From Thiogranum longum (GTDB taxonomy: Bacteria > Pseudomonadota > Gammaproteobacteria > DSM-19610), in assembly GCF_004339085.1 (NCBI RefSeq), contig NZ_SMFX01000001.1, forward strand, positions 1,620,242-1,684,241: a DNA stretch of 64,000 nucleotides, in the 5' to 3' direction. Shown in pieces: positions 22,617 to 33,050 of this stretch. Below the pieces are notes generated by a model. The model saw nothing but the letters and a program-made list of their open reading frames with translations. It was not told the origin of the DNA and searched no databases. Numbering within the stretch: position 1 is the first letter of the stretch; each line of letters begins with the position of its first letter. The translations under genes and the position numbers were made by a program.

Positions 22617-23297
22617 TCAGTCGGAAAGACGGCCGTCATCCAGGTGCAGTACATAATCCATACGTTCCGCCAGCTGGATATCATGCGTAACTATCACGAA
22701 GCTGGTATTGAGATCCTGGTTCAGTTCAAGCATCAGCTGGTAGATATGCTCGGCATTGCGCCGGTCCAGGTTACCGGTCGGCTCATCTGCAAGCACACAG
22801 TCCGGGTGTGTTACCAGGGCTCTTGCGACGGCGGCACGCTGCCGTTCTCCGCCGGACAACTCGGAAGGCTTGTGCCGGATGCGGGCTTCCAGGCCGACGC
22901 GCTGCAGAAGGTCAGCCGCTTTCTTGCGCGCTTCGGAAATCACGCAACCACGGATAACAAGTGGCATGGCGACGTTTTCCAGTGCAGTAAATTCAGGTAG
23001 CAGGTGGTGGAACTGGTAAACAAAACCCAGGTGCCGGTTACGCAGTCGACTTCGCGCTGCTTCGCTCATGCGGCTGAATGCGTGCCCCATCAGCTCCACT
23101 TCGCCACAGGTCGGCTTGTCCAACCCGCCCAGCAAATGCAGCAAGGTACTCTTGCCGCTACCTGAATTCCCGACGATTGCCAGCTGCTGACCGGCTTTAA
23201 CAGTCAGATCCACCTGTTCCAGAACGGCCACATTCAGGTCGCCTTCGTTAAAGGTACGACCCAGTCCCCGACATGCGAGTATGGCAGTGTCATTCAT
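22617..23297 (-). CDS. lolD: Lipoprotein-releasing ABC transporter ATPase LolD
   Basis: Energises release of outer-membrane lipoproteins from the inner membrane to LolA. Walker [14 protein letters not shown], signature [16 protein letters not shown] and Walker [13 protein letters not shown] are all present. The frame is open upstream to 23555, but that part is the antisense-frame shadow of the permease gene. The ATG at 23297 (MNDTAILA) gives the family's 226-aa length and an 8-nt overlap with the permease stop. Confidence 0.94.
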
Positions 23298-24546
23298 AAC
23301 GCAATGCCTCGGCCGGCTGCGTGCGCGAAGCACGCCAGGCCGGGTACAGTGTGGCGATAAAGCTGAGCAGGAACGCCACCAGACCGACCTGCCATACATC
23401 GGGCCAGTTGATCTTCGATGGCAGGTCACTGATGTAATACACGTCAGCCGGCATGAACTGCACACCAAAAGCCTTCTCGATGGCCGGCACGATGGTTTCA
23501 ATGTTGAGTGCCAGCGCAATACCGCCCGCCAGCCCGATCGCAGTGCCAAGAACACCGATCAGTGCACCCTGAATCATGAAAATGCGCAAAATGACGCCCG
23601 GCGTAGCCCCGAGTGTGCGCAGGATGGCGATATCGGCACGCTTGTCGGTCACAACCATGACCAGTGTGGATACGATATTGAAGGCCGCCACAGCGACAAT
23701 CAGCGTCAGAATGACGAACATAACGCGTTTCTCGGTCTGTACAGCGCGAAAGAAATTGGCGTGCTGGCGCGTCCAGTCCTCTACCTTCATATCGCCGCCG
23801 AACTGCCGGGCCAGTTGCTGCGCCACGCGCGGCGCCTGGAACAGGTCTTCCAGCTTCAGCCGAACACCACTAACCTTGTCACCAAGCCTGAACAGGCGTG
23901 CCGCATCCTGCATGTGCACCAGTGCCACGCCACGGTCGTACTCGTACATACCCACCTCAAAAATACCCACTACGCGAAAACGCCTCAATCGCGGAAGGAT
24001 GCCGGCGGGGCTGAAGTTGGCCTGGGGCGTGACCACGGTAATACTGTCTCCGACGCGCGCATCAAGGCTGTAAGCCAGCTCACTGCCGAGAATAATCCGG
24101 TACTCACCCGCCTGCAGGTCATCCATACTGCCGATGCTCATATGCTCGCCTACCGTCGAAACGGCCGGTTCGCGCGATGGCAAGATGCCCCGAATCAAGG
24201 CCCCGCTGACTTTCTTGCCCTGTGTCAGCATGACCTCGCCCTGCACATAGGGCGCCACACCGACCACCTGCGGGTTCTGTTTTGCCAGTTCAGCCGCCTT
24301 TTCCCAGTCGCCAAGTGGCTCCCGGTAGCCACTGATACTGGCGTGTGATGCCATACCAAGGATTCGGGTCCTAAGCTCCTGTTCGAAGCCGTTCATGACT
24401 GATAGCACCGTGATCAACGCAGCAACACCCAGGGCGATGCCCAGCATCGAGATCAGGGAGATGAAGGAGATGAAGTGGTTACGGCGCTTGGCGCCGGTGT
24501 AGCGCAGGCCAATCCAGATTTCCAGGGGTCGAAACATGCGGGGCAT
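23290..24546 (-). CDS. Lipoprotein-releasing permease (LolC/LolE/LolF type)
   Basis: 418-aa MacB/FtsX-type permease: one N-terminal transmembrane helix (about residues 28-50), a large periplasmic domain, and three C-terminal helices (about 275-400). The N-terminal [26 protein letters not shown] is typical of the Lol permeases. Only one permease gene is present next to lolD, so a homodimeric LolF-type exporter is likely, as in gammaproteobacteria that lack separate lolC and lolE. A second start at [10 protein letters not shown], three residues in, is possible. Confidence 0.9.
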
Positions 24547-28052: not shown

Positions 28053-28829
28053 CTACCTGACACGTTTCAGGCTGTTGCGGTCAAAGTCACGTTCAGTCAG
28101 ACCGGTTTTGAATATGTAGTTACTCCACGTCAGTCGCGTACTCTTGCCGGTCTGGTGATTTTCCATGAACATGTCGTGGGAGCGCCAGTAACGATCCAGA
28201 AACTGCCGGTAGTCGGTGAATATGAGTGTTTTCAGCAAACTGTTCTTGCGGTCATAGTAGACAATTTTCAGTGGCCGATATTCCGCCTTGTCGACCCACA
28301 CAACCTGGCGCGTATAACCTGAATACTTGTCTACCGGATCTCGCTCTATGACATAGCAGTCCGCACCATCGTATGACTCGTCACGCAGGTATTTGTAGGT
28401 ATATTTTTCCACTTCCTGGGAAGACAGGTCTTCGTAGGCGAATTCGCTGCCCATGAAAGGCCCGGATTTATTGCGCGAGGAAATACGCTTGACGCGCTTC
28501 AGTGCAGGGAGGTACAGCCACTGGTCATCTGGCCCGCTCTTGTGGGTAAAGCTGAGAAAGGCCGTACCCTTCACGTCTGCCGGGCTGTCGAAAATAGTCA
28601 GGCTCTTGTCGCCGTCATTTTCCACTTCAAGTGTCCTGACGCGAATGTCCCGGGTGCTCTCCTCTCCCTGCCGGTTGCGCAGCAGCATACGCATCGAAGC
28701 CGTGGAATCGTGAAACCCTGTATCGCGGCGATCGGCTTCGTTCGCAATCTCCAGGCCTTTCTCTTCGGGTGTCTGTGCCGTCGCGTTAAACGACAGACCC
28801 AGAAGGATCAGTATGCACAGTTTTTTCAT
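28053..28829 (-). CDS. LolA-like outer-membrane lipoprotein-sorting protein (RND partner)
   Basis: 258 aa with a signal peptide (MKKLCILILLGLSFNATAQ) followed by a beta-rich domain of the LolA-like, PF17131 type: SFTHKSGPDDQWLYLPALKRVKRI, GSEFAYEDL and RQVVWVDKAEYRPLK. Such proteins are regularly encoded with MMPL/RND exporters and may carry lipids or lipoproteins across the periplasm. The ATG at 28829 has AAGGTGAG upstream and is preferred over 28847. It overlaps the end of the RND gene by 44 nt. Confidence 0.85.
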   Translation of the reverse strand: MKKLCILILLGLSFNATAQTPEEKGLEIANEADRRDTGFHDSTASMRMLLRNRQGEESTRDIRVRTLEVENDGDKSLTIFDSPADVKGTAFLSFTHKSGPDDQWLYLPALKRVKRISSRNKSGPFMGSEFAYEDLSSQEVEKYTYKYLRDESYDGADCYVIERDPVDKYSGYTRQVVWVDKAEYRPLKIVYYDRKNSLLKTLIFTDYRQFLDRYWRSHDMFMENHQTGKSTRLTWSNYIFKTGLTERDFDRNSLKRVR

Positions 28830-31116
28830 CACTCTCACCTTTATCAAGTGCCATCAGCAAAGTCGGCAACAACAGGAAATCCGCCAGCAAGGCAAAGCCG
28901 ATGGTAATTGCTGTCAACAGTCCCATGCCGGAGTTCAGTTCGAAGGGCGAGTACACCAACACCAGGAAACCTGCCATCAAAACCGCAGAGGTTGTCCATA
29001 GAGCCGTACCCACCGTATGGAAGGCGTAGCGCACGGCGTCCGGAGAAGAAAGTCCTTCCTCACGGCGTGCGCGCAGGTATTTACTGAGGAAATGCACGGT
29101 ATCGTCAACCACGATACCCAACGTCATCCCCGTTACAATAGATAATGCAAGGCCCACCTGACCTACCAGCAGGCCCCACAGACCAAATGCCATTCCGGCT
29201 GGCACCAGGTTGGGAATGATACTGATCAACCCGATACGCACCGAGCGCAATGCGAAAATCAGCACGAACGAAATAAGCACCAGGGCTACTGTAGTGCCCA
29301 CCAGCATACTGTGAATATTGCGCTTGCCGATATGTGAAAACATAACCGCCGGACTGGCACCGTGCGCCTGCATCGACGCCGGTGCATTCGCCTCAAGCCA
29401 TTGCTGTGCACGTGCTTCCAGCGCAATCGTCTGGTTACTGGAAAGACTCCCCAGCGACACATCCAGCTTGGTGGCAGATTTGTCGATATTGATCTGGTTG
29501 TTCAGGTCCAGCCCGTAGGGTAATGACATTTCATAAAGCAACAGGTACTGCGCGGCCAGTTCGCGCTGGTCTGGCAGGCGGTACCAGGCAGGATCATCAC
29601 CGTGCAGGTTCTTGTTGAGCCGCTTCATGGTGTCAGATAGCGTGCTGACATGTTTGACTTCCGGCTGCTCACGGTACCAGTTGGCAAACTCATCCAGTTT
29701 GCGCAGGTAGGCCGGCTCACTGATTCCTCCCGGCTCACCCGCACCCAGTGAGTAGGAAATACTGTATAGACCGGTCAGGTGATCCGTTACGTAGTCGGTA
29801 TCAACACGGAACGGAACACGCTCATCAAAGTACTTGACGAATTCATCGTTAAGCTCATTGCGCGGAACAAAGGAAATCAGGCCTGTTACCAGCACAGCCA
29901 TGAACAGCAATACGGACTTGCGGCGCTCAACGACGAGGTTCGCCAGTGCATCCATAATGGGTGCTGAACGTCCGGGCCCGCTTCGATGCCTGACCGGCAA
30001 CAACAACATCAATGCAGGAAGCAAGGCCATACTGTACAGGAAGGATGCCACCACACCGATGGCAACTACATTACCCAGGTCACGAAATGGTGGTGCATCC
30101 GAGAAGTTCATCGACATAAAGCCGATAGCGGTCGTGAGGGAGGTAATCATGATCGGCTGCAAGTTTATACGCAGGCTCTCCAGCATGGCATCACGTTGCG
30201 ATTCACCTCCCCGAACTTTCTGCAGGAAGGTCACAAGAAAATGAACGCTGTTCGCCACTGCCAGTGTCATGATCATGGTGGGAGCACTCGCCATAGGCGG
30301 TGTTATATGAATACCCAGCCAGCCTGCAAGCCCCATGGCGGTAATAATCGACAGTATGATCACAAGCAATGTTGCAAATGTCGCCGCCAGGGAGCGCAAT
30401 AACAGCAACAGCACAAGCACGATGACGGCGAACATAATCGGCACCAGCGTCTTCATGTCGCTGAGTGCCATTTCCGAGAATGCGTTATTCAGCAGTACGA
30501 CACCGGTCAGGTGAACCTCCAGTTCCGGATATTGCTCCAGGAGCCGGGTCGCCAGGTTGCGGCTGAAAGCGACAACCTCCGGCACTTCCTTTTCAGGGTT
30601 TACGCCGGGCAACTGGACAGTGACATTGACTCCCGTAGTGCGCGAATCCGGTGCAATCAGGCGATTCACCAACAAAGGTTCGGTCGTTGCAATACCGCGT
30701 ATCTTTTCCAGTTCGTCGGCATCAAGGCTGGACGGATCCGGCACCAGGTCCTCTACAACCAGGTCATCAGCTTCCGCGTAGGTGTGCTGGAAGTTGGTCA
30801 CCGAATCGACGCGGATTGAATAGGGAATCTGCCAGGATGCCTCGGTCAGCCAGCGAATGGCTTCGAGCGTATCGGGTGTAAACACATCGCCATTGGCTGG
30901 CGAAATCGCGAACAGGACATTATCCGACTTGGTATAGACATTCTGCAGGTGCTCGAATGCCAGCAGTTGCGGGTTTTCTTTGCTGAAGAAAATCCGGTAG
31001 TCATTGGAAAACTCGAGATGGCGCGCACCGCTGGCGGCAAGAAATGCAAAAACAATTGCACACAAAAATGCGCTCCATCGCCAGCGAACCAATTGGCTCG
31101 CGAATAACCTCACCAT
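28786..31116 (-). CDS. MMPL/RND-family exporter (HAE-3-like)
   Basis: 776-aa inner-membrane transporter with two repeats, each one helix plus a large periplasmic loop plus a five-helix bundle. The first bundle is at about 215-370 (sterol-sensing-like), the second at about 600-760. The conserved GMTLGIVVDDTVHFLSKY motif lies in the second bundle. No membrane-fusion protein or outer-membrane channel is encoded, so it is more like the lipid/hopanoid/pigment exporters that pair with LolA-like proteins than the AcrB drug pumps. It is co-transcribed with the TetR gene upstream and the LolA-like gene downstream. Confidence 0.88.
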   Translation of the reverse strand: MVRLFASQLVRWRWSAFLCAIVFAFLAASGARHLEFSNDYRIFFSKENPQLLAFEHLQNVYTKSDNVLFAISPANGDVFTPDTLEAIRWLTEASWQIPYSIRVDSVTNFQHTYAEADDLVVEDLVPDPSSLDADELEKIRGIATTEPLLVNRLIAPDSRTTGVNVTVQLPGVNPEKEVPEVVAFSRNLATRLLEQYPELEVHLTGVVLLNNAFSEMALSDMKTLVPIMFAVIVLVLLLLLRSLAATFATLLVIILSIITAMGLAGWLGIHITPPMASAPTMIMTLAVANSVHFLVTFLQKVRGGESQRDAMLESLRINLQPIMITSLTTAIGFMSMNFSDAPPFRDLGNVVAIGVVASFLYSMALLPALMLLLPVRHRSGPGRSAPIMDALANLVVERRKSVLLFMAVLVTGLISFVPRNELNDEFVKYFDERVPFRVDTDYVTDHLTGLYSISYSLGAGEPGGISEPAYLRKLDEFANWYREQPEVKHVSTLSDTMKRLNKNLHGDDPAWYRLPDQRELAAQYLLLYEMSLPYGLDLNNQINIDKSATKLDVSLGSLSSNQTIALEARAQQWLEANAPASMQAHGASPAVMFSHIGKRNIHSMLVGTTVALVLISFVLIFALRSVRIGLISIIPNLVPAGMAFGLWGLLVGQVGLALSIVTGMTLGIVVDDTVHFLSKYLRARREEGLSSPDAVRYAFHTVGTALWTTSAVLMAGFLVLVYSPFELNSGMGLLTAITIGFALLADFLLLPTLLMALDKGESDEKTVHTDPSGSVV

Positions 31117-31136
31117 CTGGATTCCTTGTTATTGTT

Positions 31137-31763
31137 TCAGCACGTTTTCAGCGACAGAAGAAACTGTATCAACCCCCGGTTACAGGTTCTCAAACGATCC
31201 TTGCTTTGCGCACTTTTTGCAAGCCCGATACAACCTTCCAGCGCAGCCATCACAAAGGTGGCGATTTCTTCACAATCACAGTCTGCGCTGATTTCCCCCT
31301 GTTGCTGCGCCTTTTCCAGCGCCTCCTGTGTCGCACCGTGCCACGCCTCGAACAACCGATCCAGGCGCAGGCGGAACCCCTCGTCCAGTGGAGACATTTC
31401 CTGGGCAAGATTGTTCAATGGACAACCGTACTGAATCATTTCCGGTGGCTTGTTATCCGGTAATTGCTCAATCACGTCAATCAGTGCCTGGAAACTGTCT
31501 TCAGCGCCTCGCAACGGCTGGATCCACATCGCCTGCATGGTCTGCTGGATGACTTCATCGACAACAGCATAGCCAAGTGACTGTTTATTAGGGAAATGAT
31601 GGTATAGCGCACCTTTCGTCAATGACGTGGCTGCAAGCACCTCATCCAGGCGCATACCCTGGAAACCATTTCGATAGATTTCCATAAATGCAGCTTCAAG
31701 TATCCGCTGTCGTGTCTGATCCGGGTTTCTGGGCGCCCGGGCCGCGCTATCTGCCTGTTGCAT
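31137..31763 (-). CDS. TetR/AcrR-family transcriptional regulator
   Basis: 208 aa. The DNA-binding helix-turn-helix lies at about residues 30-65 (LDEVLAATSLTKGALYHHFPNKQSL), and a helical ligand-binding domain with five cysteines follows. It is the first gene of the RND operon and is divergent from the DsrE-like operon. The imperfect palindrome at 31824-31841 is a good candidate operator, which would let it control both directions. A ribosome-binding site (AGGAAGGTGAG) precedes the ATG. Confidence 0.9.
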   Translation of the reverse strand: MQQADSAARAPRNPDQTRQRILEAAFMEIYRNGFQGMRLDEVLAATSLTKGALYHHFPNKQSLGYAVVDEVIQQTMQAMWIQPLRGAEDSFQALIDVIEQLPDNKPPEMIQYGCPLNNLAQEMSPLDEGFRLRLDRLFEAWHGATQEALEKAQQQGEISADCDCEEIATFVMAALEGCIGLAKSAQSKDRLRTCNRGLIQFLLSLKTC

Positions 31764-31820
31764 GACTCACCTTCCTGTCGCCCTCACTGACATTATTCGG
31801 GAACTTGTAATGGAAAGCTA

Positions 31821-31850
31821 TTGACAAACCATCTGGTCGGTACGTATTCT
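31821..31850 (+). promoter_or_regulatory. Promoter with overlapping TetR-type operator
   Basis: TTGACA (31821-31826), an 18-bp spacer and TATTCT (31845-31850) form a strong promoter for the gene at 31914. Within the spacer, ACAAACCATCTGGTCGGT (31824-31841) is an imperfect palindrome centred on ACCA-TC-TGGT, the size and style of TetR operators. Binding there would block RNA polymerase. Repression by the neighbouring TetR protein is inferred. Confidence 0.65.
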
Positions 31851-31913
31851 AGCAACTAATACATATCGGGACAATACCGGAATCCAACGAAATCCAGCAG
31901 GAGCTCGAAGGTT

Positions 31914-32366
31914 ATGACAGCAACAACGCTTGGCATCAGTATTGGAGAGGCCATACCGGATCGGCGTCTTTCATCCAATGCCTATTCAGGAACCCTGCAG
32001 CTGAAAGGCAAGCGGGTTCGCATAGACATCAGCGAAAGTGCCACCCAGGCACTTTCTGACCGCGATGAACCTCTACTGGTCGAGCTCGAGCTGTATTTCA
32101 GCTGCCTGGTACGTAAACAGATTCGGTTTACCGCCCTTCAGCAAGAGCCCGGGAGGGACAGTGACTGCACACGCGTTATGGAAGGTCTGTATGCCAGTTT
32201 CCGTACCGTCACCACCGCACATTGCCGTATTGACGAAACCGACGGTAAACCGCCAGTGGAAACCCTGCCGGTGAAAAAACCCGATCTGTTTGTTCCGGAC
32301 TGGCTGAAACTCGATTTTCGCGCCGGTCGCTGGCTTGGCGAATATGGATTCAAGAATGATCTTTGA
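31914..32366 (+). CDS. Unknown protein, 150 aa, first gene of the DsrE-like operon
   Basis: No family recognised. The protein is soluble with no signal peptide. It opens with a beta-rich region (YSGTLQLKGKRVRIDISE), has a central segment with two cysteines (FSCLVRKQ, DSDCTRV) and a third in TAHCRID, and ends in a Pro/Lys-rich stretch and RAGRWLGEYGF. The start has GAAGG directly upstream. It is transcribed from the TTGACA promoter ahead of the DsrE-like gene, 27 nt away, so the pair likely acts together. Confidence 0.7.
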   Translation: MTATTLGISIGEAIPDRRLSSNAYSGTLQLKGKRVRIDISESATQALSDRDEPLLVELELYFSCLVRKQIRFTALQQEPGRDSDCTRVMEGLYASFRTVTTAHCRIDETDGKPPVETLPVKKPDLFVPDWLKLDFRAGRWLGEYGFKNDL

Positions 32367-32393
32367 CCCCTTAACCCTGATGGGAGGTTCACT

Positions 32394-32999
32394 ATGAGCA
32401 CCGATGTAAGCAATACCGAGATGGATCAATGGCTCGACAAGAAACTGGATGAGCTGCTACCCGGCAAACTGAAAAGTATCGATGAAACCAAAACCCCCTC
32501 CATGGCCATGATCGCCACCAAGGGCACCCTGGACTGGGCCTATCCACCCTTTATCCTGGCGTCAACCTCCTCTGCCCTCGGCTGGGATACTTCGATTTTC
32601 TTCACCTTCTATGGCCTGCTGCTGCTCAAAAAAGACCTGAGTGACGCCATGGTCAGCCCGCTGGGCAACCCGGCCATGCCGATGAAAATGCCGTTCGGTC
32701 CCAAGTGGTTCCAGGACTTCGACTGGCCGATGCCCAACCTGCTCATGGCAGGTGTCCCCGGGTTCGAAAAGGTCGCCACCGGACTGATGAAGAAAACATT
32801 CAAGAACAAGGGAGTAGCAACAGTGGAAGAGTTGCGTGAACTCTGTCTTGAAGCTGATGTCAAAATGGTTGCTTGCCAGATGACGGTGGACGTATTCGGA
32901 TTTGACCAGAGCGAGTTTATTCCGGAAGTGACCGACTATGTCGGAGCGACGTACTTCCTTCCGGTGGCCAAGGATGCCGATGTCTGCCTGTTTATTTGA
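32394..32999 (+). CDS. DsrE/DsrE2-like sulfur-carrier family protein
   Basis: 201 aa. The DsrE-family core (MAMIATKGTLDWAYPPFILASTS, then FFTFYGLLLL) is followed by a C-x9-C pair at Cys151 and Cys161 in ELCLEADVKMVACQ, the arrangement typical of DsrE2 proteins that pass persulfide sulfur between TusA and rhodaneses in sulfur oxidisers. No tusA, rhodanese or hdr gene is next to it. A good ribosome-binding site (GGGAGG) precedes the ATG. A strong terminator follows at 33024, closing the two-gene operon. Confidence 0.82.
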   Translation: MSTDVSNTEMDQWLDKKLDELLPGKLKSIDETKTPSMAMIATKGTLDWAYPPFILASTSSALGWDTSIFFTFYGLLLLKKDLSDAMVSPLGNPAMPMKMPFGPKWFQDFDWPMPNLLMAGVPGFEKVATGLMKKTFKNKGVATVEELRELCLEADVKMVACQMTVDVFGFDQSEFIPEVTDYVGATYFLPVAKDADVCLFI

Positions 33000-33023
33000 A
33001 ACGTTTTCATAGTCCCTCCTTCG

Positions 33024-33050
33024 ACCGGCGTTCTGCGCCGGTTTTTTTTG
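33024..33050 (+). terminator. Rho-independent terminator of the DsrE-like operon
   Basis: ACCGGCG (33024-33030) pairs with CGCCGGT (33036-33042) around a 5-nt loop, followed directly by TTTTTTT. It ends the 31914-32999 transcript and shows that the in-frame upstream extension of mfd to 33048 is not its start. Confidence 0.92.

Follow-up and report, generated by a model that had tools for sequence, protein, structure and literature searches.

What does a TetR-family repressor control when its gene separates a transporter operon from genes for sulfur carriers, and to what might it respond? We addressed this for a locus at positions 28053-32999 of a 64,000-nucleotide stretch of DNA (the window) from Thiogranum longum, a marine sulfur-oxidising gammaproteobacterium; the window is part of one 2.92-Mb contig of this genome (G000). 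Five genes make up the locus: those for a LolA-like periplasmic carrier, an RND/MMPL transporter and the TetR repressor on the minus strand, and opposite them, on the plus strand, those for ORFX and the sulfur carrier DsrE2. Our preferred answer, held with slightly better than even confidence, is that the predicted regulon of this one TetR comprises TetR-RND-LolA, ORFX-dsrE2 and a distant tusA gene, and that a thiol-reactive signal induces it. The predicted co-regulation of the two operons and tusA is well supported by comparison; what the comparisons show is the gene order, the conservation of the operator, its recurrence at tusA, and the conserved cysteines.

The original prediction had placed a TTGACA/TATTCT promoter containing a TetR-type palindrome between the two operons, and both are borne out. 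The predicted plus-strand promoter for ORFX-dsrE2, TTGACA-18-TATTCT (31821..31850; 10/12 match), is overlapped by a minus-strand promoter-like site for TetR-RND-LolA, TTGTCC-17-TAGAAT (31846..31874). These two promoter-like sites in the TetR/ORFX intergenic region compare with 0.4 expected in shuffles, and TTGACA is invariant across 14 aligned intergenic regions. Operator 1, ACAAACCATCTGGTCGGT (31824..31841, plus strand), is a palindrome that overlaps the plus promoter at its -35 box and spacer. It represents, in diverged form, the operator ACATACC-N4-GGTATGT of this TetR subfamily, with three mismatches to it (P = 0.003 inside the 150-bp intergenic region). Over the whole window such matches occur at chance level (2 seen, 1.5 expected), and a scan of the T. 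longum genome for the operator alone, at ≤3 mismatches, was uninformative: it gave 92 sites, and the reversed control 82. Because a single match is not above chance window-wide, the case for the window operator rests on its position and its conservation.

Elsewhere the subfamily operator, at ≤2 mismatches, lies upstream of TetR in 36/40 loci, which were selected among 80 named loci, plus one other. For a survey of linkage, the TetR/ORFX regions of relatives were retrieved and the window genes mapped onto them. TetR is present in 17 of 20 family genomes, the window genome included, and every one of these 17 carries DsrE2, ORFX or both opposite it; DsrE2 occurs without ORFX in G006 and G015, and the loci of G003, G018 and G019 are interrupted by contig ends. 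Neither TetR nor ORFX was found in G004 and G013 (71% and 75% complete), and in G009 TetR has been lost, with RND still adjoining ORFX. G140, G254 and G350, which belong to another family, have the arrangement mfd-DsrE2(-ORFX)|TetR in common, as far as their contigs extend; at the TetR|DsrE2 locus of G350 both ORFX and RND are missing. More distant relatives carry TetR-RND-LolA without DsrE2. Linkage of the two operons, which the original prediction had proposed to check by such a survey, is therefore kept in 17/17 family genomes and in three from another family.

The operator, predicted to lie between the operons, follows the same pattern. Its motif falls inside the shared intergenic region in 20/20 TetR|DsrE2/ORFX cases, with the best site at 1-3 mismatches (P ≤0.017, 300 dinucleotide shuffles each), and is absent from the intergenic region of G009, where TetR is lost (best 6 mismatches, P 0.88). 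Neither of the two refuting outcomes attached to the original prediction was therefore seen. Most family genomes have site 1 inside the TTGACA...TATTCT promoter and, just downstream and within the reverse promoter, a second one; only site 1 is retained in the window and in its closest relative, G012. No operator was found before the RND-LolA paralogue cluster or the second dsrE2 of G000. The same holds for ORFX-DsrE2 in G155 and for its second copy in G011; the best matches across these places had 4-6 mismatches. One-mismatch sites also occur elsewhere in 13 genomes and, of six inspected, one is upstream of a TetR gene (G002). G009 has another TetR locus (L062), which also contains TusA and DsrE2.

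Outside the locus the operator recurs at tusA. A promoter-plus-operator pattern, TTGACAAACNNNNNGGTNNGT, gave 10 exact matches in 17 genus genomes, six upstream of ORFX-dsrE2 and four upstream of tusA, and none with a reversed-pattern control. In G000 the sole second match precedes tusA (PF01206, 85.1 bits) at about 1.1463 Mb, ~0.5 Mb from the TetR locus. Upstream regions were compared for the best tusA match of 29 genomes (41 genomes had a match, 30 a locus), with orthologues (n = 13) defined by a common second palindrome. The operator precedes 11/13 of these orthologues with 1-3 mismatches (0/200 shuffles as good) and 0/16 of the other tusA genes. In the tusA promoter of G000 (contig C1, about 1146242-1147206; L313:1501-2465) the operator is followed by the second palindrome, GTGAACGTTCAC, and directly 3' of tusA lies a TetR_C_7 gene. 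The nearest relatives of TusA and DsrE2 are encoded side by side in nine other genomes of the class and on two plasmids, so that dsrE2 and tusA, now at separate loci, look like a functional pair. On a Thiothrix subterranea plasmid (L399:5035-7144) the order is TetR-TusA-DsrE2-CMD, beside a YeeE/YedE thiosulfate transporter; the TetR there is of a distinct type, 26% identical to P0003, with the same Cys and Lys kept. In G053 ORFX lies opposite TetR-TusA-DsrE2.

The TetR protein itself (31137..31763, minus strand; TetR_N and TetR_C_13) may point to a kind of signal. Its Cys114 and Lys183 are invariant in 21/21 aligned TetR sequences and align exactly with Cys106 and Lys175 of NemR, which the available part of PMC7464077 describes as a hypochlorous acid (HOCl) switch. 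This alignment suggests thiol sensing through Cys114. NemR, the TetR-family bleach and electrophile sensor of Escherichia coli, is likewise a repressor whose gene heads the operon that it controls; its targets, however, are nemA and gloA, whereas those predicted for the window TetR are a transporter and sulfur carriers. NemR orthology was not found, as identity is only 20% and the neighbouring genes differ, and for this reason we describe the window TetR as working like NemR and not as being NemR.

Family searches confirmed the predicted gene set, in which TetR, an RND protein lacking a fusion protein and a LolA-like protein face an unknown protein and a DsrE2-like one. DsrE2 (32394..32999, plus strand) passes the cut-off of NF047629 (216.2 against 210 bits), and its Cys161 (ACQMT) is invariant in 14/14 aligned sequences and also in 7/7 that include the paralogue from the same genome, one row being the window protein repeated. 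A terminator-like hairpin (33023..33043, plus strand) follows dsrE2, before mfd. A third DrsE_2 gene of G000 is divided between the ends of contig C1 (2916538-2916789 and 24-221); because it spans both ends, the chromosome is circular and was opened inside this gene. On the minus strand the HAE3-like RND/MMPL transporter (28786..31116) matches PF03176 (144 bits, cut-off 20.5) and misses the cut-off of the HAE3 RND family TIGR00921 (178.9 against 351.9 bits); no fusion-protein gene adjoins it. The LolA_like carrier (28053..28829) scores 233.6 bits against PF17131 (cut-off 30, 1.8e-69) and is related to PDB 3bk5 (352 bits). Its best start is the ATG at 28829, although a longer TTG open reading frame extends to 28847, and its N-terminal end looks like a Sec signal. 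The RND and LolA genes have 44 bp in common, and the gaps are 20 bp between TetR and RND and 27 bp between ORFX and DsrE2; these overlaps and short gaps indicate two operons. An ABC permease at 23290-24546 (minus strand), 3.5 kb from the LolA-like gene, presumably resembles a LolC/LolE lipoprotein-release protein.

ORFX (31914..32366, plus strand; 150 residues) had no match in Pfam or NCBIfam. Two of its cysteines are conserved, Cys64 in all and Cys104 in nearly all of 52 homologues. The list of similar structures for two models was topped by SufA/IscA with Z scores of 6.0 (root-mean-square deviation 3.3, 87 aligned) and 5.4 (3.1, 86), too low to be telling. We do not assign ORFX as an IscA/SufA A-type iron-sulfur carrier, since hhalign probability was <1% against PF01521 members in two comparisons and there was no Pfam match. 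ORFX and DsrE2 occur together again in G011 (second copy), G155, G053, G140 and G254, and DsrE2 is not near ORFX in 39/44 of the ORFX loci retrieved. The TetR subfamily heads an operon with CMD and ORFX among its genes in Thiobacillus thioparus, in a Sulfuriferula metagenome-assembled genome and in one such genome labelled Rhizobium, and in L138, L151 and L154 (Thiobacillus, Sulfuriferula) a perfect operator stands before TetR-methyltransferase-CMD-ORFX operons of the same TetR subfamily.

The surroundings of the transporter genes in relatives bear on what might be moved. A conserved long protein, which we read as an outer-membrane barrel, is encoded 3' of LolA in 27/47 loci having RND and LolA; those tested matched no Pfam family or PDB sequence, and the gene is absent from the window and the Thiogranum loci. 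In 14/47 loci, two of them duplicating other contigs, LolA has near it a gene for a secreted DsrE-family protein (PF02635), and in 4/47 one for a secreted rhodanese. Both are absent at the window locus, and the best match to the secreted DsrE in the window's own genome is only 27% identical. This genome has an RND-LolA paralogue (57% and 70% identical; G000:C1:2630000-2648000, L320) in a cluster with a SoxA/TsdA-type cytochrome, DsrE, two SoxB-like proteins, an unnamed long protein and a FisR-like sigma-54 activator. The TetR loci of G140 and G350 include a flavoprotein that is sulfide:quinone-reductase-like, under the NCBIfam cut-off. The sigma-54 activators of L320, G140 and G350 contain Cys-x10-Cys-x6-Cys, and FisR likewise has a third cysteine. 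Their first cysteine spacing equals that of Cys53-Cys64, the sulfur bridge of FisR (available part of PMC9495516). The original prediction of a module for export or detoxification of lipids or sulfur compounds is thus partly supported, on the sulfur side by the operator at tusA, the secreted DsrE and rhodanese near LolA, and the paralogue cluster, and on the lipid side by the putative barrel that follows RND-LolA; the exported molecule and the TetR signal are matters that we infer.

In the mechanism that we propose, a TetR dimer at rest would occupy ACATACC-N4-GGTATGT-like sites over the -35 box and spacer (in relatives also the -10 box) and block RNA polymerase. Induction would begin when a thiol-reactive signal modifies Cys114, with Lys183 near it as in NemR; the likeliest candidates are sulfane sulfur and electrophiles or oxidants that derive from sulfur. 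The modified TetR would leave the DNA, inducing both operons and tusA. DsrE2 and TusA would then relay sulfur among cytoplasmic proteins, with ORFX as an accessory thiol protein, and the RND protein would pass a hydrophobic molecule to LolA, destined for the outer membrane. The signal, the Cys114 chemistry, the sulfur transfer, and the cargo and its direction are the inferred parts of this scheme. A more speculative extension, which we regard as improbable, is that RND-LolA with the outer-membrane partner of relatives forms a trans-envelope route by which sulfur oxidisers move hydrophobic sulfur, as S8 or long polysulfanes; sulfane sulfur would induce it together with the DsrE2-TusA relay through the TetR thiol switch, and secreted DsrE and rhodanese would receive the sulfur in the periplasm.

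Several observations weigh against a sulfur-responsive regulon. Cys114 is widespread, occurring also in further TetR structures of this class, and so is not sulfur-specific; the window operator has three mismatches, and of the second site only a degraded form is left. The tusA orthologues of G008 and G018 lack the operator, and the second palindrome and neighbouring TetR gene suggest that tusA is also under another regulator. The TetR subfamily often occurs where sulfur genes are lacking: in its 80 named loci RND is present in 31, CMD in 18 and DsrE2 in three, two of these three being contigs counted already. Moreover, mfd adjoins TetR-RND-LolA without DsrE2 in L170, L182 and L196, and lies beside TetR in L193, so that the mfd neighbourhood could have put DsrE2 where it is. 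TetR might control its own transporter operon alone, with ORFX-DsrE2 merely located between TetR and mfd; overlapping promoters mean that any operator touches both. We consider this very unlikely, given that operator 1 lies in the plus promoter -35/spacer in most family genomes, that the unlinked tusA bears the same site, and that loss of the operator accompanies loss of TetR in G009.

A lipid ligand for TetR is a serious rival. TetR would then be a classical ligand sensor, with a hydrophobic compound such as a fatty acid or hydrocarbon inducing RND-LolA(-outer-membrane protein) and with DsrE2 and TusA recruited for thiol or iron-sulfur repair. TetR-RND-LolA without DsrE2 is indeed the common form, and the putative barrel of the 27 loci fits such a role. 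So does Thalassolituus oleivorans, where TOL_3187, an MMPL protein with a LolA-like part, and the next gene are strongly up on C28 alkane (available part of PMC6304351). As in relatives of the window locus, RND and LolA-like parts are followed there by a predicted outer-membrane protein (the porin TOL_3188), but they are fused in one protein, the context is growth on alkanes, and the available text gave no link to DsrE2 or TusA. Since DsrE2|TetR survives without RND (G350, L124) and tusA has the same operator, we think a hydrophobic ligand possible but rather unlikely. A similarly tentative standing goes to a NemR-like defence against electrophiles or oxidants, with sulfur traffic secondary and DsrE2, TusA and ORFX repairing or replacing damaged thiols; its sensing step overlaps that of the thiol-switch regulon and its purpose differs. 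Cys114/Lys183, the CMD genes headed by the same TetR subfamily (18/80 loci) and the presence of some ORFX homologues near AhpC/CMD genes all favour such a defence, but the window's predicted operons contain no NemA/GloA-type detoxifying enzyme, and the host and neighbouring genes indicate sulfur oxidation.

The predicted thiol-switch regulon is a combination built from known parts. Like HpnN/BstA-type RND lipid transporters, the window RND is HAE3-like without a fusion protein, but it scores 115 bits against HpnN and 11 bits against BstA, both far under cut-off, and its partner is LolA_like. The cst operon works like the predicted window system in that a repressor controls DsrE/TusA-type sulfur handling; its repressor CstR, however, is of the CsoR family and not TetR, and the operon has no RND-LolA. 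CstR is a sulfane-sulfur sensor (available part of PMC9495516). Sulfur-trafficking Rhd-TusA-DsrE2 clusters are described from Allochromatium and Metallosphaera (PMC4175335, in part); they likewise have DsrE2, an NCBIfam equivalog, and TusA, partners that are adjacent in relatives of the window, whereas in the window's genome dsrE2 and tusA are at separate loci joined by the TetR operator and dsrE2 is paired with ORFX. TetR was looked for and not found in the available part of PMC9774590. As the original prediction had supposed, no published description combining DsrE, TetR, RND and LolA was found, in a search that left out most subscription journals.

The predicted regulon bears on the sensing of sulfane sulfur inside the cells of sulfur oxidisers, and on how, or whether, hydrophobic sulfur crosses their envelope. 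With one predicted repressor and a well-defined operator that connect a specific transporter with DsrE2 and TusA, both questions become testable.

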